DNA of 64,000 nucleotides from an uncultured bacterium (lineage in GTDB: Bacteria > Edwardsbacteria > AC1 > EtOH8). Of this stretch, positions 10,178 to 20,946 are shown in pieces. Under the pieces are notes generated by a model. The model did no database searches. It was not told the origin of the DNA and saw only the letters and a program-made list of their open reading frames with translations. The stretch lies in contig CALMGM010000005.1 in assembly GCA_937863685.1 (NCBI GenBank), forward strand, positions 558,001 through 622,000. Reading direction: 5' to 3'. How positions within the stretch are numbered: the first letter of the stretch is position 1; each line of letters starts with the position of its first letter. Both the position numbers and the translations under genes were made by a program.

Positions 10178-10300
10178 CTATGACAGCAATCTCTTTCCCC
10201 CCTCCGCCACCTTTATCTCTTCCTCGGTCAGCCCGTATAACTTTTGGTATAACTCTTTGACCCTCTTATCCAGATCGTTGCCTTTTTTTGGTCTCCTTTT
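10178..10300 (-). pseudogene. Remnant: C-terminal tail of a type IIG restriction enzyme gene
   Basis: The minus-strand frame reads ...KELYQKLYGLTEEEIKVAEG... and stops at TAG (10178-10180). The same ending, YKLYGLTEEEIKVVEG, closes the intact enzyme encoded at 14370-17405. Only about 35 codons remain and the rest of the gene is gone. It marks the former 3' end of another restriction-modification gene. Confidence 0.75.
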
Positions 10301-11949: not shown

Positions 11950-12003
11950 TTAATAATAGATAGCCTGGCGCAGGGCGGAAGTAAATGGTTGGCGACGATT
12001 CAT
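11950..12003 (-). repeat. Short tail repeat overlapping the stop of the next gene
   Basis: A 17-codon frame, MNRRQPFTSALRQAIYY, begins with an ATG that overlaps the TGA of the 12000-12758 gene (ATGA). Its RQ-x-[YF]-T-x-ALRQAI core matches the tail after the fic gene at 10511-10580. Confidence 0.5.
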
Positions 12004-12758
12004 GGTTTTAATAATTTATCTAATATTTTATTCTTATATTTTCCCAAGTGTGCGGCTCTGGTCTCCGAACCATTAAATATTATCACGTTTTTTGACCGCT
12101 TAAGCTCCCAAACATCGGCCTTACGGGCAACTAAAATCAATATTTCGCCATTTTTAGCCCTTGGTTTTAAAATATTTTTTACATAATCTACCGCCATTTT
12201 AGGGCTTACCAGTTTTTTTATTATTTTCTTGCTTATCGCAAATTGGTTAGAATGATAGGGAAAATATTCAATAATGGCGACACGTTTGCTTATATGGGAA
12301 AGAGCCTGTTGGTAACTACATCTCTTCTTTCTCATTATTTCTTCGGTTATTCCGGCGAATTTTTTGCTCCAATACCTGCCGCCACCGGTCCAAAGAAAAC
12401 GGGGGTTAAGTGGCAGAAAAGGGTATTGGTTGTCAAAATATTTCTGCTTAATATTGTTTATGATGGCTTTCCTGTATGCTTTGCTTTTATATTCTGCAAA
12501 ATAGTCTATAGGCTCAAAGCCGGGGTTTAAAAGAAGAATTAATATTTTTGCTTTGGCAAGATCTCCCAGATAAGGGATCGGCAAAAGTCCCAAATGAATT
12601 GTTTTTCTATTATTTATATATGCGCTTTTTATAAAATCAGAGTAGCTAGTAAATTTCTGGACATTCTGATTGTCTTTAATTTCCTCATCGCCCGTTAAAA
12701 CATACGGGGGCTTTTTAAATCTTGTCCTTGACCAGACATTTATTAAATTATTTTTCAT
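12000..12758 (-). CDS. Hypothetical protein, possible uracil-DNA-glycosylase-like fold
   Basis: 252 residues, basic, AT-rich compared with the housekeeping genes. The segments AKILILLLNPGFEPIDYF (near 69-86) and VAIIEYFPYHS (near 161-171), then ILILVARKADVWEL, follow the order of the UDG-like fold (active-site strand with NPG, later FPYH/S, then a Rossmann strand). The match is by eye only. It lies 33 bp downstream of the PD-(D/E)XK-like gene and may share a transcript with it. A role in DNA modification or defence is only suggested by the island. Confidence 0.5.
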   Translation of the reverse strand: MKNNLINVWSRTRFKKPPYVLTGDEEIKDNQNVQKFTSYSDFIKSAYINNRKTIHLGLLPIPYLGDLAKAKILILLLNPGFEPIDYFAEYKSKAYRKAIINNIKQKYFDNQYPFLPLNPRFLWTGGGRYWSKKFAGITEEIMRKKRCSYQQALSHISKRVAIIEYFPYHSNQFAISKKIIKKLVSPKMAVDYVKNILKPRAKNGEILILVARKADVWELKRSKNVIIFNGSETRAAHLGKYKNKILDKLLKP

Positions 12759-12791: not shown

Positions 12792-13157
12792 CTATAAATT
12801 AATGTTTCTTATTATTTCCCAGCGCATTTCATGAATAGCATTAAGCTGTGATAAAAGGTAATTTTTCCACCGTGGGCCTTTGTATGTTTGCACAAATATA
12901 ACCGGTATGGCATTAATATTATAAACATCTCTCCGGTAATTATAATCTTTATCCCTTGGGGTACCGCAAACTTCAATATATACGCCTAATTCAGGCAAAT
13001 AAAAGTCCGGGTTCCATACTCTCGGCCTATCTTTTTCATCCATTAGGAACACCGGCTGTTCGAATAACCAATAAATATTATGCCTTGCTAGAAAATCAGC
13101 CACTTCAATCTCGGCACCTGTCATATCTCCATAAACTGAAACCTGTCTTCGTTTCAT
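12792..13157 (-). CDS. Small PD-(D/E)XK nuclease-like protein
   Basis: 121 residues. An N-terminal helix with TGAEIEVADFLARHNI (about 13-28) is followed by NPDFYLPELGVYIEVCG (about 49-65). That order matches restriction-endonuclease-fold proteins of the Vsr/DUF559/NERD type (E in the first helix, PDF, then E-x-K-G). The catalytic Lys of E-x-K is replaced by Cys here (IEVCG), so activity is uncertain unless a Lys migrates from elsewhere. Its start sits inside the remnant of a type IIG gene tail. Confidence 0.55.
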   Translation of the reverse strand: MKRRQVSVYGDMTGAEIEVADFLARHNIYWLFEQPVFLMDEKDRPRVWNPDFYLPELGVYIEVCGTPRDKDYNYRRDVYNINAIPVIFVQTYKGPRWKNYLLSQLNAIHEMRWEIIRNINL

Positions 13158-13169
13158 TTATTCCCCCTT

Positions 13170-13300
13170 CCACCACCTTTATCTCTTCTTTTGTCAGCCC
13201 GTATAACCTGTACACCAACTCGTCAATTTCCTTGTCTGTTACGGTAATGTCTGCCGCATGGCGCTGTCGTAGGGCTGGGTTGAAGGCTTCCTATAAGGCG
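13170..13300 (-). pseudogene. Remnant: second type IIG C-terminal tail
   Basis: The minus frame reads ALRQRHAADITVTDKEID followed by ELVYRLYGLTKEEIKVVEG, again the ending of type IIG enzymes (compare DHEIDQLVYKLYGLTEEE in the intact gene). No in-frame stop follows directly: the reading runs into the start of the 12792-13157 gene, so the normal stop has been lost. Confidence 0.75.
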
Positions 13301-13316: not shown

Positions 13317-14339
13317 CTAACAAACAATGCTATCTTCTTTGCTATCCATACAAACATATGTCCTTATTATAAATTTTGTATAATAAGTGTGGAATATGCG
13401 CCAATAACCTAAACCCAATAACCATGCTACTATGTATGTGCTAAAAAGCTGTATTCTAAAAGCATCGTAATTAACTTTATTGCCAAATGTTAAAATAATA
13501 ACCATAAAAAAACATACAATATAAGCAGCTGTTGAAATGTTCCTTGAAAAACCATACAAATGCAACCAATTGCGTATCAGTGCTACATTTTCCGGTGCGC
13601 TGTTATTTACTTTATGGTATGGCAACCAAAAATTATCGGAACCAACTTCATCGGATATCAAACTAAAATCATTTTTAAATTTTATTTTATATCTTTTAAT
13701 AAAATTATCACTGAACGTTCTATCTACTGATATTAATTTTTTTAACATTGTTATATAAATTTCAATAATTTTATAAGGCAGTAAACTAAACCTAACTAAT
13801 TTGTTATTGGCTATTTTTTTTAAAATAATTTTACTCTGTTCATTTGTCTCAAATATTGCAATAATAAATCTAAAAATGAATAATATAATTATTATAATTG
13901 TAGCCCATATTGCAACTATTTTTATTTTGTTTTGGTCAGTAATGAATAAGGGCAATAAAATAAACATATTTAGTATAAATAATGAATAACCATGCGATGC
14001 TCTTGAATATTCTCTTATTACAGTTGGTATTTTCAGTAATGTTATGTATGGGTAACCGGTTATCCCATCATTTATAATACCGTAAATTATTGAACTTAAA
14101 GTTGAAACAACATGGCCCAATATATATAAAAGTACTATCGCAAATGAACCAAGGAGGACGACCATTAATACACCATTTTCCCTGCATGTTGACCAAATGG
14201 TATTGCATATAAGTTGATCAATAAAAGAATATTTAAAAAATATAATTGAAGAAATAAATATAAATATACCTGGGAATAAATAACCATAAAAATCATATAA
14301 ACCGAAAGGGACCCAGGGCGCAATATCTCTAGAATTCAT
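13317..14339 (-). CDS. Multi-pass membrane protein of unknown function, AT-rich
   Basis: 340 residues. Hydrophobic stretches at about 18-36 (LFPGIFIFISSIIFF), 56-78 (VLMVVLLGSFAIVLLYILG), 119-135, 142-163 (IWATIIIIILFIFRF), 270-290 and 300-320 suggest about six membrane helices. A charged cytosolic part lies at about 165-262. Base composition is strikingly AT-rich and Ile/Lys/Asn-rich, unlike the core genome. A GGAGG site lies 9 nt before the ATG. It follows the type IIG gene by 30 bp on the same strand, so it may be co-transcribed and act as a membrane effector, but nothing in the sequence proves a function. Confidence 0.7.
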   Translation of the reverse strand: MNSRDIAPWVPFGLYDFYGYLFPGIFIFISSIIFFKYSFIDQLICNTIWSTCRENGVLMVVLLGSFAIVLLYILGHVVSTLSSIIYGIINDGITGYPYITLLKIPTVIREYSRASHGYSLFILNMFILLPLFITDQNKIKIVAIWATIIIIILFIFRFIIAIFETNEQSKIILKKIANNKLVRFSLLPYKIIEIYITMLKKLISVDRTFSDNFIKRYKIKFKNDFSLISDEVGSDNFWLPYHKVNNSAPENVALIRNWLHLYGFSRNISTAAYIVCFFMVIILTFGNKVNYDAFRIQLFSTYIVAWLLGLGYWRIFHTYYTKFIIRTYVCMDSKEDSIVC

Positions 14340-14369: not shown

Positions 14370-17300
14370 TTATTTCCCCTCCACCACCTTTATCTCTTCC
14401 TCTGTAAGCCCGTATAGCTTATAAACAAGTTGGTCTATCTCGTGATCCACCGCTGCGATTTTTAAACGGTTTATTTCACGCATTTCGGGCGTTTTGTTTA
14501 AGGCCAGCATTTCTTTTGTTAGCTTTACAATATTATCGTGAAATTGTTTTTCCCTCTTATTTCCAATAATTTTTATTGGCAACTGTTCAACATACATTGG
14601 TTTTGCTTCGATGAATCCCCCAGCTCTTTCTGCAGCAATTGACGTAAGGAACCACCAAATTAATTTAGAATTTAATAAAGCCAACAAATACTTATCACCT
14701 GATGTCAAGATGCAGGCTGGCGCATTGATAAAATGATTAGTTGTGTCCAATGTGAAGGATGCTCTATTGCATAAATTACCCCAACATATTTTAGGTTTTT
14801 CAAATTCATCGTAATATACACAAGCTCTCAATTCCCACCAATACTCGCCTTGATCAGATCTTTTTATGGCTTCTTTTTTGTTTTTACTTAAATGCTCAGC
14901 AATAGCACTGTAATGGGTTTCAAACCAACCCCATTTATCCTTTTCTTCCTTCGCATTCTTTTCAGTCCATCCATTAGGTATAAAAATTAAATATCTGTTT
15001 TCTTTGTTTATCAAATATCGGTTTATATCTTTACCCAATAAATACGGTTTGATTAGTTCATTGTTTTTTTTGTTTTTCTTTATTATTGTATCTTTAGTTC
15101 TTTCATCAATAATAAAGGCATCATTCAAGCCAGTTTTAACACCATATAATATTTTCAAACCACTGTTCTCAGTTAACGCTATCCCTGTGTTTTTTATTTT
15201 ATTTACTAAATCACAGCCTTCTTTATTTTTTAACCCCCATATATCATCACTAAATTTCTCTTTTGTTATGGTGTACTGTATACTCTCTATATATGAAGAT
15301 AATCTATTTTCCATTATTTTATCTAGTTGGGCAACTTTAAAAGAAGTACTTGCTTTTCCACCTTTGATTACCATTATACATGGGTAAATAGTTACGCCCT
15401 CAAAAACATGCAGATCACCAAAATCAATTAGCTTCGCTATATTCTTCCCTAAAAGCCATTTTCTAAACGCTTTCCCGTAATTTGCCCTCATCCATTTGTT
15501 TGCAACTATAAAACTGAAATAGCCGTTTTCATTAAGCAAACTAACGCCCTTTTCAATAAAATATACGTATAGGTCTGCGCTTGTATCAAAAACGTTATAG
15601 GTTTCAGAAAAATAAACCTTCAGTACGCCCAAGCCTTCTTGTCTAACATATGGCGGGTTTCCAATCACCGCATCAAAACCACCTTGGGCAAAAACTTCTG
15701 GAAATGCCACCTCAAAATTTAACGGTTGTTGTTCATCCGGCTTGCTGAAATAAACAGCCAAGTTGCCGTTCAACCTGCGGTTCAGCGTTATCTCTGCGCT
15801 TTGTATATCATCCCATAGCTTATGTTTTACCGCATCTTCACTGGATTTGTAAAACTGCTTATGCAGTTTCAAAAGTTTTACAACATCCCCGTCTGTTTCA
15901 TAAACGTTGAACATGTTCAACTGTTCCTGGTCGGCCAGGGATTTACCGGAAACAAGAGAGTTTCCATGCCTTATATTAAGATGCAGGCTGGGCAGTAACT
16001 TACGCCCTTTAAGTTCGTCCCACTTATGCTTATCCAAAGCCTTTAACATCAAATTTAGCTTACATATCTCCACCGCCCGCTGGTCCAGGTCCACACCGTA
16101 TAGGTTGTTCTGCAAAATGGTACGCTTAATGTCAAAATCCTTTTTATCCGGGGTGGCCTTTTTATAGGCGGCGTGGAATTTATCGAAGGCATTGATCAAA
16201 AACGAGCCGGAGCCGCAGGCCGGATCCAGCACTTTTATTTTCTTGATGTCTTCAAAGCTATGCGTCTTTTGTAATAATTCGCCGACCGTGTTGGTAACGA
16301 TGTAGTCCACGATATATTCCGGTGTGTAATAGATGCCCTGGCTCTTGCGCTTGAACCTGGCCTTGTCCAACCGTACCGTGATCCCCTGTTTCTTGCCGCC
16401 CCGCAGCATCTCGCCCAGATAATCCTCGTAAACATCGCCAATTATGTTGACAGGCAGGCGTGAGAAGTCCACCGAGGCCAGTTCGGAAACTATTGGCGCC
16501 AGGACCTCGTTGCTTATTTCAAAACCATTTATATACTTATCGCTTTCAAACAGGTCGGTATTGAACCTATCGTCCATGGTTACGAACCACTTTTTCAATT
16601 CGTCATAGACCTGTTTTTTGGTATAAAGGATCGAATCATGGGCGTTGGGGCCGATGATCCTTTTATCATGACATACGTCTATGAATATCATCCGGTCAAG
16701 TATCTTTTGGGCGTACAGGTCTATCTTTTCTTTGTCAGGTAAAAGCTGGTTGTTTTTGGCCCACAGCTCTGAACGCAGGGATTCGCGCCAGCCCTTGAGC
16801 ATTAAAAAGAAATCATCCCTTATGTTTTTTTCTTCGGGATAGTAAATTTTATCTTGGGTAATTAGGCCCTGCGCTTTGCAGAAAGGATGGCGTTTGAATG
16901 TGCTTAAAAAAGCAAGCCCCTCCTTGGAAAGAAGGTCAATGTAACCCTTCTTGTCGACCCCGGGCCATAATAGGTCATGGAAAGCGTATTTCTTATTCTG
17001 GTATATTTGTCCAAACTTGACGGTATACAAACGCCATTCTACAAAGTTGGTCAACACGCCCCAGTACACGCCTTCGGCTTTGCAGTAATTTATTAACTGC
17101 TGTTCAAATGTCTTTTTGTTCTTGCCCGAACCATAGTAGCCGTCAAGCTTGTTTGCACCGCCGGCATCCTTGCATTCCACAACCAGCAGAGTCCATTTAT
17201 TGGCATCCTTTAAAAGGATATCGGGCACCTTGCCGGTGGCTACATCCTGCCGGTCGCCCTGGGCCATGCCGCCGTCGTTCCAGTCCAGCATTTCCAAGAC

Positions 17301-17405
17301 TTTTACCACATAGCTGGATTGGATCTGCATTTCCGACAGGCTATAAATGTCCCGGGCTTTCGCCTGGGCCACTAAATTTTGGAGGGACGTTTTTAGAACT
17401 GACAT
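14370..17405 (-). CDS. Type IIG restriction enzyme/DNA methyltransferase (Eco57I-like)
   Basis: 1011 residues. The N-terminal nuclease region has PD at 61-62 and E-C-K at 77-79 (VVECKD), a PD-(D/E)XK site. The methyltransferase core has SAM motif I VLDPACGSGSF at about 392-402 and the adenine N6 motif IV NPPY at 583-586. The C-terminal 300 residues are the TaqI-like target-recognition region, ending in YKLYGLTEEEIKVVEGK. One polypeptide therefore cuts and methylates. Transcription probably starts at a TTGACA/TATATT promoter at 17445-17473, overlapped by a large inverted repeat. Cognate remnants lie at 10178 and 13170. Confidence 0.93.
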   Translation of the reverse strand: MSVLKTSLQNLVAQAKARDIYSLSEMQIQSSYVVKVLEMLDWNDGGMAQGDRQDVATGKVPDILLKDANKWTLLVVECKDAGGANKLDGYYGSGKNKKTFEQQLINYCKAEGVYWGVLTNFVEWRLYTVKFGQIYQNKKYAFHDLLWPGVDKKGYIDLLSKEGLAFLSTFKRHPFCKAQGLITQDKIYYPEEKNIRDDFFLMLKGWRESLRSELWAKNNQLLPDKEKIDLYAQKILDRMIFIDVCHDKRIIGPNAHDSILYTKKQVYDELKKWFVTMDDRFNTDLFESDKYINGFEISNEVLAPIVSELASVDFSRLPVNIIGDVYEDYLGEMLRGGKKQGITVRLDKARFKRKSQGIYYTPEYIVDYIVTNTVGELLQKTHSFEDIKKIKVLDPACGSGSFLINAFDKFHAAYKKATPDKKDFDIKRTILQNNLYGVDLDQRAVEICKLNLMLKALDKHKWDELKGRKLLPSLHLNIRHGNSLVSGKSLADQEQLNMFNVYETDGDVVKLLKLHKQFYKSSEDAVKHKLWDDIQSAEITLNRRLNGNLAVYFSKPDEQQPLNFEVAFPEVFAQGGFDAVIGNPPYVRQEGLGVLKVYFSETYNVFDTSADLYVYFIEKGVSLLNENGYFSFIVANKWMRANYGKAFRKWLLGKNIAKLIDFGDLHVFEGVTIYPCIMVIKGGKASTSFKVAQLDKIMENRLSSYIESIQYTITKEKFSDDIWGLKNKEGCDLVNKIKNTGIALTENSGLKILYGVKTGLNDAFIIDERTKDTIIKKNKKNNELIKPYLLGKDINRYLINKENRYLIFIPNGWTEKNAKEEKDKWGWFETHYSAIAEHLSKNKKEAIKRSDQGEYWWELRACVYYDEFEKPKICWGNLCNRASFTLDTTNHFINAPACILTSGDKYLLALLNSKLIWWFLTSIAAERAGGFIEAKPMYVEQLPIKIIGNKREKQFHDNIVKLTKEMLALNKTPEMREINRLKIAAVDHEIDQLVYKLYGLTEEEIKVVEGK

Positions 17406-17413
17406 AATATTTT

Positions 17414-17473
17414 AAAGCGGTATATTATTACTTATTTAGTATTAAATATACCGCTTTGGTTATAGGTTGTCAA
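17414..17473 (-). promoter_or_regulatory. Promoter and overlapping inverted-repeat operator for the type IIG gene
   Basis: On the minus strand TTGACA (17468-17473) and TATATT (17445-17450) are 17 bp apart. A perfect 12-bp inverted repeat, AAAGCGGTATAT (17414-17425) and ATATACCGCTTT (17446-17457), overlaps the -10 box and the leader. Part of this region (17434-17479) is duplicated at 20641-20686. Confidence 0.75.
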
Positions 17474-17497
17474 ATGAAAAGTGGTGGGAAAGCAAGT

Positions 17498-17521
17498 AGC
17501 CCGGTCAGTAATAACCGGGCT
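17498..17521. terminator. Hairpin after the ATPase gene
   Basis: AGCCCGGT/ACCGGGCT, 8-bp stem, with extra GC pairing outside. It is followed by GCTTTTG on the plus strand and by ACTTGCTTTCC on the minus strand. It lies 36 bp after the stop of the 17557-19647 gene and before the type IIG promoter. The T-run is weak for the minus strand. Confidence 0.5.
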
Positions 17522-17556: not shown

Positions 17557-19647
17557 TCAAGATTTTAAATACAATTCTATAGTTTTGACTGCATGTTTGT
17601 TTGATTTTGAATTGTTTTTGTTCTTAAATATTTTATCCTCACATACCGACGCTTTGTTTAACAAGCTCAACCAATCCTTTAATTCTTCTTGATACAAATA
17701 CGACATTTTTTTCGATTTCACAATGTTCAACATAGACAATGCCGTATTTGATATAATTTCGTTAACAATAATACCATTTATAAATCTTTTATTTATCGGT
17801 GTATTACTTATGTATTTCCTTGTCTGCCTATAATCACTTTCTAATAATTCATTTAGGCATTTTCGCATAAATGAAAATCTTTCTATAAGTGATGAATAGT
17901 CAACCTCATTAGGGACAGCTTTCGGCCATAAAGCTGCGGCAAAACATTCTTGGTTATATACAAGCTCATTAAGTAATACTTCTAAATATCTCTGCCCTGT
18001 ATAAGTTATGTTTACCCTATCATTTGGTGATGAGAACAAATCATTAGTACTCTCATAGTGATTTTTACCATCAACATATATTAATTTTTTTCTTGCGTTC
18101 ATTAATATATTTATATCACTCAATATTATACGATTATCCCAATTATAGAGTCGTTTTAATTGATCTAATAGGATTTGTATTGTGGCCCTTTTTTTATTTT
18201 TCTTTGCGTTATAAAGTAATTGTAATATTCTTATTTTCAACAATGAATTCAAATTATCTTCCTGTGAGACATAAAGATTAGTCACTAAAGAGTCTTTTGG
18301 ATTTATGGTACCCTCTTCATTGTTTGAAACAAATAAGGCACGAATAAGGTCGTTTTCATACGGACTTGGTTCGTCATATTTAATTACATAGTTTAGAAAT
18401 AGTCTACATGTTATATATAAACCACGCCTTATACTATTTCCGGATATTGCGTCAATAACTTCTCGTAGTCGATTATTTGCATCTGCTCGCAATAAATCAT
18501 ATATATGCCTTAATCTAACCTCATATTTATCAATATAGTCACTATTTGGTGCCTTTTTCAACTGTTTATAGTTCGCATTGGTATCACCTTGTTCAATATA
18601 ATATTTCATTCTATTTGTTATTATTTTTATGGGCAATACACCCGCGAACACAAAATGTCCAAAGGAATATGCTGCATTTGCAGCTATCCAGCCAAAAGCT
18701 GTTTGTCGCATTGGTATTAATATTTTAACTTTTGCAACTTCTGAAAATCTAAGTATAAAAGTCAAAATATCATTTTGAACTTCTTCTTGTGTTAATTGAT
18801 CAATATTGTCAAACAGAATGATAAAGCAACCCTGGCGTATATAATTACTTTCTTTTACGAATCTGATCAAATAGCCTAATAACGCAATTTTGCTTTCATA
18901 ATCTGTTTTTTGATCTATCCAGTTAAATAAGCACTCATTTTTTTGTATAAGTGTATAATTATTCCATTGTGTATTGTTTTTTACGTTACTTGAAACAAAA
19001 TCATCAAATTTTGATTCCCATTGGTCATCACTCTCATCTTTAATGTTTGTGTTTATTACCTTATCAACAATATTATCTGTAGCAGGGTATTTATTATATA
19101 TGTTGGTTATTTTTCTTTTTAACTTATTATAAAGATCTTCCGTGAAAGTATGCATAATCGCACTGTAATTACTGGGCAAATAACCATCAATAAAATTTAT
19201 TCTAATACTTATAAAGTTTTTTATTTTACAAGCGTTGCATGCTTCAACATCATTATTTGTGTGATTAATATTTACTGAGATATAATCCAACACATGTTTA
19301 ACAGTTGCAGTTTTGCCTATACCCAAAGCCCCAGGCATGACAATAGTATTATATGTACTACTTAGCAAATAACCAACCAAACATTTTTCGACCGGTCCTA
19401 ACTTATTTAAATTGACAATGTTTGTCCCGTTAGGTATTTGTGCACTTTTGGGGTCTATCAGATCGTCCTGGTATAAATTTTCAGTTTGATGCCGGTTATT
19501 TACGAAGTTATCTACTGTAGATAAGTGATATCCTTCTGGCCCAATACTTTGCTGTTGCATCATCTCATCGACAATAGGTTTTATTTCATGTATAAAAGCT
19601 TTGTTCTCTTTTACATAAAAAGGCGCATTTAATCTTGTAACAGCCAT
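17557..19647 (-). CDS. P-loop ATPase (STAND/AAA-like) of a putative defence module, AT-rich
   Basis: 696 residues. Walker A GALGIGKT lies at 106-113, and Walker B is FIILFDNID with the Asp at 280. Nearby IPMRQTAF could be the sensor arginine segment. A CNAC pair sits at about 137-140. The C-terminal 300 residues are helical with no recognisable domain. Composition is very rich in Asn, Ile and Lys, unlike the core genes, which suggests transfer. It lies 9 bp after a small membrane-protein gene on the same strand. Such ATPase plus membrane-protein pairs in restriction islands are often anti-phage systems; that role is an inference. Confidence 0.75.
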   Translation of the reverse strand: MAVTRLNAPFYVKENKAFIHEIKPIVDEMMQQQSIGPEGYHLSTVDNFVNNRHQTENLYQDDLIDPKSAQIPNGTNIVNLNKLGPVEKCLVGYLLSSTYNTIVMPGALGIGKTATVKHVLDYISVNINHTNNDVEACNACKIKNFISIRINFIDGYLPSNYSAIMHTFTEDLYNKLKRKITNIYNKYPATDNIVDKVINTNIKDESDDQWESKFDDFVSSNVKNNTQWNNYTLIQKNECLFNWIDQKTDYESKIALLGYLIRFVKESNYIRQGCFIILFDNIDQLTQEEVQNDILTFILRFSEVAKVKILIPMRQTAFGWIAANAAYSFGHFVFAGVLPIKIITNRMKYYIEQGDTNANYKQLKKAPNSDYIDKYEVRLRHIYDLLRADANNRLREVIDAISGNSIRRGLYITCRLFLNYVIKYDEPSPYENDLIRALFVSNNEEGTINPKDSLVTNLYVSQEDNLNSLLKIRILQLLYNAKKNKKRATIQILLDQLKRLYNWDNRIILSDINILMNARKKLIYVDGKNHYESTNDLFSSPNDRVNITYTGQRYLEVLLNELVYNQECFAAALWPKAVPNEVDYSSLIERFSFMRKCLNELLESDYRQTRKYISNTPINKRFINGIIVNEIISNTALSMLNIVKSKKMSYLYQEELKDWLSLLNKASVCEDKIFKNKNNSKSNKHAVKTIELYLKS

Positions 19648-19656
19648 TTATTCCTC

Positions 19657-20292
19657 TTATATTTTTGAGTTTATAATGTTTTGTTTTAATTGGTTGAAAA
19701 ATGTTTTGTTTGTCTCATAAAATTCCATTAACATATTGTACTCATTTTCATTATAATAATTGGAATTAAAGTTTGCATTTAAAAAAGTATTCATTATATT
19801 TTTATACTTATCAATGTGGCATTTAATTAAATACTTATTCAATAACTCATATCTTTCAGTATCTTTAAAACATATGTATCTATGGATATTACCTATGTCA
19901 TCAGTAAATCTGTACCAATAAAAACACAATTCACTTTTATTGTATTTCTGTCCACTATCGATAAGTACCCTTATCTCTTCAGTTTTTCTTTTTAATAAAT
20001 CGTTATTGTTTATAAATATTCGATCAATACTATCTATCATCAAACTATATTCATTTAGCTTACTTTTTATTTTTACTATCACATTAATAAAATACGCGAA
20101 GATTATGCTGACTATACCTGTTTTAATCCACTCTGATGTAAAATTTGCATAATCAAATACAATATAATTCTTAAATACAAATGCAGGCCAAAATATTAAT
20201 ATTATGATTAAAATTACAAATAGATACTTATTTTTAATTATTAAAAATTTGTAATACATTTCAGGCCCTAAGTTATAGTTAATAAATATCAT
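19657..20292 (-). CDS. Small membrane protein paired with the ATPase
   Basis: The frame is open from 20403, but the first 37 codons (Arg-rich) read through a hairpin and look non-native, so the start is placed at ATG 20292; ATG 20259 is also possible. No strong ribosome site helps to choose. The protein of about 200 residues has two membrane helices near its N-terminus (KYLFVILIIILIFWPAFVF and WIKTGIVSIIFAYFINVIV). A long helical cytosolic part with a YWYRF segment follows. It is AT-rich like the ATPase gene 9 bp downstream, and the two probably form one unit. Confidence 0.65.
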   Translation of the reverse strand: MIFINYNLGPEMYYKFLIIKNKYLFVILIIILIFWPAFVFKNYIVFDYANFTSEWIKTGIVSIIFAYFINVIVKIKSKLNEYSLMIDSIDRIFINNNDLLKRKTEEIRVLIDSGQKYNKSELCFYWYRFTDDIGNIHRYICFKDTERYELLNKYLIKCHIDKYKNIMNTFLNANFNSNYYNENEYNMLMEFYETNKTFFNQLKQNIINSKI

Positions 20293-20353: not shown

Positions 20354-20611
20354 CTACTGTGCCTTCTTCTTCTCCCTGGTCTCCTTAGCCTTCTTGGCCG
20401 CACCCCTTTGTGCCTTGGTCTTGGTGCTGAGGGCCGGCACCCCCAGCTTCTCCAGATACTCCGGCTTGGTCCTTAACGCCACCTTGGCGATCTTTACAAA
20501 CATCGCCATCCACTCGTTAAGCGCCTTCAAGGCCGCCTGCTGGTCCCGGGCCGCGTTCTGGGCCTCGCCCTTGGCCTTCGGTGCTTGTAAGCTGCTTTTA
20601 AACTGTAGCAA
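20354..20611 (-). pseudogene. Truncated helical protein gene (C-terminal part only)
   Basis: The 85-codon frame begins with TTG and no ribosome site. It encodes helical text (ALKALNEWMAMFVKIAKVAL, then KPEYLEKLGVPA) ending in a Lys/Arg-rich tail. This looks like the end of a larger helical protein of the sort encoded at 21008-21715. A promoter copy lies 40 bp upstream, but the first ATG after it reads only two codons. It is most likely a gene cut at its 5' end by the rearrangement that created the duplicated promoter. Confidence 0.55.
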
Positions 20612-20640
20612 AAATTAATCAAAACATTTTATGTGCCTTT

Positions 20641-20686
20641 ATTTAGTATTAAATATACCGCTTTGGCTAGTGGTTGTCAAATAAAA
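20641..20686 (-). promoter_or_regulatory. Duplicated promoter copy (direct repeat of 17434-17479)
   Basis: Twenty-six bases (20641-20666) are identical to 17434-17459, and the match continues with a few changes to 20686. It holds TTGACA (20675-20680) and TATATT (20652-20657) 17 bp apart on the minus strand. The second arm of the operator present at 17414-17425 is missing here. Confidence 0.75.
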
Positions 20687-20946
20687 TATTCGTGACCATA
20701 CAGCCCTAAATGGGCAACGATCTGTACGTCATTTGTAACCTTTTTTACGGCATGCGTGACCCTCTTTCCGCTGTGCGGACCCGCCTTTCCACCCTGCATA
20801 ACCCGCTTTTCCATATCCGCTATTCGCTTTCCGCTGTGCGGACCCGCCTTTCCGGCATGCGGGACTTGTTTTCCGGAATGTTTGGTCACTTTACCGGCAG
20901 GCGCAACCTGTTTTCCGGCATATATAAAGGCTTTCCCGTTATGCAT
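20677..20946 (-). CDS. Heptapeptide-repeat small protein, function unknown
   Basis: 89 residues, nearly all made of a 7-residue unit [AS]-G-K-x-[VIAG]-x-[HP], about nine copies (AGKQVAP, AGKVTKH, SGKQVPH, AGKAGPH, SGKRIAD and so on). The DNA is a degenerate 21-bp tandem repeat, and the plus strand is also open over 94 codons because of this. Minus is preferred because all neighbours lie there and the unit is more regular. The repeat extends one unit upstream of the ATG (AGKGVMH), so the start is unsure. Lys/Gly/His-rich composition suggests binding to an anion, nucleic acid or metal, but no family is recognised. Confidence 0.5.
   Translation of the reverse strand: MHNGKAFIYAGKQVAPAGKVTKHSGKQVPHAGKAGPHSGKRIADMEKRVMQGGKAGPHSGKRVTHAVKKVTNDVQIVAHLGLYGHEYFI

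Follow-up and report, generated by a model that had tools for sequence, protein, structure and literature searches.

A putative ORC/STAND-like ATPase and a small membrane protein as a candidate two-gene anti-phage system with nuclease-fused relatives on mobile elements

For STAND-type defense proteins, a swapping of the N-terminal effectors has been described, and for the transmembrane proteins of STAND-type systems, a role as cell-suicide effectors is assumed; both points are made in PMC9122126. Here, we describe a gene pair encoding a P-loop ATPase and a small membrane protein, which lies in an AT-rich island at about 10-20.7 kb of the window, as the whole analyzed stretch of 64,000 nucleotides is called. 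We consider it moderately probable that this pair represents a two-gene anti-phage system, in which the ORC/Cdc6-STAND-like ATPase would serve as the switch and the membrane protein as the effector. The features of the locus are the following:

20639..20686, minus strand: promoter repeat, first copy (TTGACA-17-TATATT), which precedes the membrane-protein gene by about 390 bp
19657..20259 (200 aa) or 19657..20292 (211 aa), minus strand: small membrane-protein gene, from hydropathy and reading frames
17557..19647, minus strand: ORC/STAND-like P-loop ATPase gene, 696 aa, Walker A GALGIGKT, Walker B FIILFDNID
17498..17521, minus strand: terminator-like hairpin of 10 pairs after the ATPase gene, which would stop the transcript of the pair before the type IIG gene
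17432..17479, minus strand: promoter repeat, second copy, directly upstream of the type IIG gene
14370..17405, minus strand: 1011-aa type IIG restriction enzyme-methyltransferase, a neighbor outside the pair that has a promoter of its own

A sequence-only reading of this DNA had reported a 696-residue P-loop ATPase with the motifs given above, a neighboring gene at a distance of 9 bp whose product has two N-terminal membrane helices, and a composition of both genes far more AT-rich than the core. All of this was found again. Between the end of the membrane-protein gene at 19657 and the start of the ATPase gene at 19647 lie 9 bp, and hydropathy places the hydrophobic helices at residues 22-40 and 55-73 (211-aa numbering). 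The GC content is 21.9% for the membrane gene and 30.1% for the ATPase gene, compared to 40.7% for the type IIG gene and 55.7% for the window outside the island. The start of the membrane gene had been placed at 20292, where an ATG is indeed present; the ATG at 20259, however, has by eye the better ribosome-binding site and gives a 200-aa form in place of the 211-aa one. Beyond its two N-terminal helices the membrane protein has a helical, presumably cytosolic part. Its structural model is all-helical (pLDDT 58.5), but derives from a two-row alignment and is too poor to use. The two-gene pair is confirmed to be real, and a full-length homologue at E 2e-23 shows that the ATPase gene is truly coding.

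The identity of the ATPase is less obvious. It has no significant Pfam match (best E 0.023; AAA E 0.038), no PADLOC family at E up to 1 and no PHROGs match, and the NCBIfam model TIGR02928 (orc1/cdc6) reaches E 0.0015 with 17.5 bits against a cut-off of 181.3, covering Walker A only. The C-terminal region appears to have a wHTH-like make-up. The model of the ATPase (pLDDT 42.8), again from a two-row alignment, is too poor to use; the top ranks of the fold search are ORC, Cdc6, TnsC and BrxC chains, with a best E of 3.9e-3 and none at E <= 0.001. A weak match to ORC4 chains (E 0.003) was also obtained with the profile of the ATPase family defined below as class A. By Pfam and a motif check, the ATPase itself contains no nuclease motif or other effector domain, and the membrane protein matches nothing in Pfam, PADLOC or PHROGs and one NCBIfam model at E 0.099. 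This agrees with the earlier statement that neither protein shows a recognized effector domain, since Pfam, PADLOC, NCBIfam and PHROGs give no significant match. A housekeeping origin of the ATPase, which would have spoken against the proposal, did not emerge, as no housekeeping family was matched at the curated cut-off. A replication ATPase of this kind was considered as a candidate and rejected, given that no Orc1/Cdc6 match lies above cut-off and the distribution is patchy.

In a search of 386 genomes, from which 16 match rows at E 0.017 or worse were dropped, the window ATPase has two real relatives, one in genome G336 (E 2e-23, nearly full length) and one in G189 (E 1.9e-14); in the same search no homologue was found in the 9 other genomes of the window's family. 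The contig of G336 belongs to Calditrichaeota bacterium isolate CLD3 222 (QQUF01000047.1). Profile searches yielded matches in 2 of 348 genomes (one taken further), 1 of 194, 3 of 193, 3 of 96 (two already known) and 2 of 198 (one taken further), in 3 of 386 (two already known, one left aside), and in small sets in 1/9, 1/7 and 0/1 genomes. Those left aside, G565, G1282 and G074, are short P-loop matches. As the larger genome searches scored only few candidates per genome, absence from a genome is weak evidence. Searches with the window ATPase by itself gave no match in GTDB contigs, plasmids, phages or viral contigs, and likewise alignment A1 and the ATPases of the two relatives (loci L021 from G336 and L022 from G189) found nothing in viral contigs, plasmids or phages. 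A scan of the GTDB contigs with alignment A4 returned only the Calditrichota contig of G336. The ATPase of locus L035 found nothing in plasmids, and that of locus L037 a single plasmid record at E 4e-3, itself a locus of the nuclease-fused class described next. In this sample, the ATPase family is rare and has a patchy distribution, which fits a mobile gene. For the membrane protein no phage record was matched, and its 11 plasmid records all concern a single Shigella effector gene, with an identity of about 30% and E values of 0.1 or worse; they were rejected as AT-rich chance matches.

The relatives fall into two classes. Class A comprises the five members found with an ATPase lacking a nuclease, i.e., the window, L021, L022, L035 (G1107) and L037 (G1082). 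The commoner class B, with L027, L034, L036, L044 and L045 as genome members, carries the same ATPase fused to an N-terminal PD-(D/E)XK (HsdR_N-like) nuclease. The invariant residues E29, D65, E78 and K80 (L036 numbering) of this N-terminal extension fit a PD-(D/E)XK nuclease, and Pfam HSDR_N matches three of the five genome members, with E 0.0022 at best and below cut-off. The alignments of the two classes match each other over 445 columns (hhalign probability 99.8, E 2.6e-28). Furthermore, with the class A HMM all five genome members of class B are found, their E values ranging from 5e-22 to 5e-12, while the controls (reversed sequences and P-loop proteins without relation to the family) score 0.4 or worse. 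In a maximum-likelihood tree with 35 rows, a branch with support 100/99 separates the classes, and many branches are long; five of the 30 class B loci from viral contigs (L060, L069, L071, L074 and L077), which are truncated or split, were left out of the tree and the class B counts.

Walker A is present in 35/35 family members, in one of them with A for the first G, and DNxD stands as Walker B in all 35, where the usual glutamate is absent. AAA+ motors usually carry this glutamate, and a DNxD motif devoid of it may suit a switch more than a motor. The nuclease motif occurs in none of the 5 class A and in all 30 class B proteins, whereas an adjacent small membrane gene accompanies 4/5 class A and 0/30 class B genes (Fisher p 1e-4, with criteria set post hoc). 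A partner was counted if it had 120-270 aa with 1-3 hydrophobic stretches near the N-terminus and lay on the same strand within 60 bp, a rule that was set after four partners had been seen. Because A and B are single clades, the mutual exclusion of nuclease and partner amounts to a single evolutionary change and is overstated by the Fisher values. The window pair itself combines the homologous core, the DNxD motif and the adjacent small membrane protein. In two class B proteins of viral loci, L081 6792-9464 and L068 7161-9827, an S1 RNA-binding domain forms the C-terminal end, a hint that this end might be the variable sensor and may bind RNA.

For such a neighboring gene, the background rate is 3 of 49 other genes of at least 400 aa (from the window, three E. 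coli K-12 stretches and L021), or 5/51 if the two pairs themselves are included. The genes overlap by 4 bp in L021, L035 and L037, compared to the 9 bp that separate the window genes. The membrane gene of L037 lies downstream of the ATPase and has a weak second hydrophobic stretch, while the other three lie upstream. The concern that the pair might not recur was thus not borne out, as an ATPase next to a small membrane protein is present in 3 other genomes. The partner sequences resemble each other no more than expected by chance: the window-L021 score was reached by 8/300 shuffles and the other pairs are at chance. Because of this, we claim that the arrangement is shared, but not that the partners form one protein family. 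L022 lacks a partner on the same strand; a convergent two-helix protein lies 237 bp away. The phage insertion that contains the L022 ATPase also encodes, at L022 6117-7378, a 211-aa two-helix coiled-coil protein after a 209-aa protein, a unit that is perhaps the partner of this ATPase or a separate abortive-infection unit.

The surroundings of both classes were also inspected. In the Calditrichota MAG, the pair of L021 sits between a CBASS locus and a caspase/TIR stretch. The former consists of a CD-NTase (E 1.1e-104), TRIP13 (7.4e-115), a 2TM Sa_NUDIX effector (3.5e-114), E1-E2, JAB and SAVED-TM; on the other side a caspase, two ThsB-like TIR genes, a Schlafen-type protein and an ArdC-like protein are found. 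The L022 ATPase lies between phage baseplate genes, with 42.5% GC compared to 60% in the surroundings. In the window, the adjoining gene is a type IIG gene, as had been claimed (PADLOC REase_MTase_IIG, E 5.4e-106), and PADLOC matches nearby are a SoFic-type Fic protein (1.5e-125) and a PDC-M05A/B pair (5.2e-55 and 1.9e-45). Co-occurrence with defense genes, which the sequence-only reading had named as support, is therefore strong in the window and the Calditrichota MAG, but no recognizable defense neighbors were seen by eye in the ORF lists of L035 and L037.

Class B is mobile. With the class B alignment as query, 30 loci in viral contigs were confirmed, and tblastn with L036 gave 29 plasmid records, where the protein is annotated as hypothetical protein, P-loop NTPase fold protein or predicted type IV restriction endonuclease. 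The interval between gpA and portal is given as a defense hotspot of P2-like phages in PMC9122126. This flank was checked for L081, L066 and L073: in L081 and L066, the class B gene is flanked on one side by a P2-type gpA (Phage_GPA E 1.1e-128 and 2.7e-95) and on the other by a portal gene (6.2e-16 and 1.1e-17), and in L073 only the portal was found. As class B has a nuclease in the place of the membrane partner and resides on mobile elements, an effector role of this partner is supported. The general anti-phage plan suggested earlier is in this respect partly supported by the nuclease-fused mobile relatives, but not by the membrane partners, which are unlike in sequence.

Within the island, the claim that the pair lies between two copies of a promoter holds as well: the 48-bp repeat has 92% identity between its copies, with 2 matches compared to a mean of 0.00 in shuffles. 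On the minus strand the order is promoter repeat, PQLLE fragment, membrane gene, ATPase, hairpin, promoter repeat and type IIG gene, and the copy at 20639..20686 may drive the pair. Terminator-like sites number 3 in the stretch, compared to 1.2 +- 1.3 in shuffles. A third copy of the promoter core, with 2 mismatches in 26, lies about 120 kb away (G000:C5:454140-454165; L050 5141-5166, minus strand), and downstream of it a UvrD-like helicase and a NACHT-like/SduA_C (Shedu) protein are encoded; judged by these neighbors, one promoter might be common to defense loci. By eye, an inverted repeat around the start region continues the 17432 copy and the third copy, but not the 20639 copy. Since the type IIG gene has this repeat as its promoter and a third copy exists elsewhere in the genome, the sharing of the repeat looks like island history rather than function.

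Several further observations concern the island itself. At its edge, 20354-20611 encodes a C-terminal fragment of a PQLLE-family protein (NF052641 positions 163-211, E 4e-14, below its cut-off), which adjoins a reading frame at 20677-20946 made of repeats spaced in multiples of 21 bp; a short protein near the third promoter copy (L050 5871-6224) looks similar by eye. A 66-nt repeat of the type IIG 3'-end occurs three times (10199-10264, 13165-13230 and 14376-14441; 71 and 79% identity to the reference copy) and flanks cargo genes, as if the island had grown by exchange at the ends of restriction genes. Furthermore, the island encodes a 252-aa protein at 12000-12758 with a weak match to Brig1, an anti-phage DNA glycosylase (NF047634, E 1e-5, 25.2 bits, cut-off 230), a small protein at 12792-13157 whose match to PHROG 9019 (Holliday junction resolvase, E 8e-6) is nuclease-like, and a protein of 340 aa at 13317-14339 that matches PHROG 12528 (E 2.4e-9).

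From these data we infer a course of action that leads from sensing via oligomerization, physical interaction and membrane damage to phage defense itself. A sign of infection would be sensed by the C-terminal region of the ATPase, and ATP binding would result in an ATPase oligomer. The effector would be the separate membrane protein, replacing the N-terminal PD-(D/E)XK nuclease of the relatives. The activated ATPase would engage the cytosolic helices of the membrane protein, the two membrane helices would cluster and the membrane would be breached, so that the infected cell is stopped before phage release. Because the ATPase core is found with either a fused nuclease or a membrane protein and never with both, the membrane protein is the likely effector.

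Alternatively, the membrane protein might be an anchor or sensor only, which keeps the ATPase at the site of phage DNA entry in the inner membrane, while the ATPase itself acts via its wHTH-like part by DNA binding or remodeling. This would fit the fact that ORC/Cdc6-like and TnsC-like ATPases bind DNA and that such chains head the low-confidence fold search, and also that the partners have in common only their N-terminal hydrophobic helices, as an anchor would. Nevertheless, class B uses the same ATPase core with a fused effector, so that class A would then be effector-less, and the constant lack of the Walker B glutamate fits a switch better than a motor; this explanation appears unlikely to us. 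The tight coupling of a small membrane protein to its partner in an AT-rich island would also be in line with a toxin-antitoxin-like stabilization, where a membrane toxin is checked by the ATPase and selected for maintenance of the island instead of phage defense. Against this, which we judge to be quite improbable, stands the ATPase of 696 aa with its nuclease-fused sister family in phage hotspots, a protein of a kind not known among antitoxins.

The position of the pair between two copies of the type IIG promoter could further suggest an accessory of the neighboring type IIG enzyme, with a promoter in common. However, the ATPase is separated from the type IIG gene by a terminator-like site and by a second promoter, and no type IIG gene was seen by eye in the ORF lists of L021, L022, L035 and L037, which renders such a role highly improbable. 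The two-gene anti-phage reading is retained, and the circumstantial evidence for phage defense by the class A family is good. The chances are evenly balanced that the two-gene system is an undescribed one, in which a widespread, mobile nuclease-ATPase family exchanged its fused nuclease for a membrane-disrupting protein encoded by a separate gene while keeping the same sensor-switch core.

By this analysis, an orphan pair of a poorly sampled phylum is linked to a mobile ATPase family that is common in the cargo of prophages and plasmids and for which none of Pfam, PADLOC, NCBIfam and PHROGs provides a family model. If the proposal is true, one switch core would serve two kinds of effector, DNA cleavage or membrane attack, a DNA-cutting defense would have been turned into a membrane-killing one, and the family would become findable by its DNxD-ATPase profile.

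A paper describing this pair was not found in the open-licence PMC literature, supplements apart. PMC12724215 was considered as an account of the family and set aside, as it concerns a ParA-like ATPase instead. In comparison to known systems, the pair resembles Avs/AVAST and other STAND NTPases in the combination of effector, P-loop switch and C-terminal region, as laid out in PMC9122126. It differs from these by its effector as a separate gene and by the lack of a detected repeat sensor and of a PADLOC match, since up to E 1 the ATPase reaches no PADLOC model, including those of Avs. Across the family, the PADLOC model matched most recurrently is MADS mad8 (PDLC04140; L037 8.7e-13, L022 1.6e-5), whereas the window ATPase has no mad8 match at E up to 1 and no full MADS gene set was seen among the neighbors scanned. 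BrxC and BrxD of BREX share the ORC/Cdc6-like P-loop, in line with the weak family matches to TIGR02928 and ORC4, and BrxC also has a wHTH after the ATPase, according to PMC12839542. In contrast to BREX, the window system consists of two genes only, has no PglZ and shows the DNxD motif and a membrane partner. The 2TM effectors of CBASS are similarly small, with two N-terminal membrane helices, and are believed to disrupt the membrane, but the window pair comes without a cyclase (none among the 9 island proteins scanned), a nucleotide-sensing domain or a PADLOC effector match, and CBASS adjoins the pair only in L021, as a separate locus. For DefensePredictor, validated PD-(D/E)XK and P-loop systems are reported in PMC13092281, and class B could be hidden among these. 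The single-gene HsdR_N-ATPase proteins of class B share the homologous ATPase core and the DNxD motif with the pair: there the nuclease is fused and no membrane gene is adjacent, and in class A it is the reverse.
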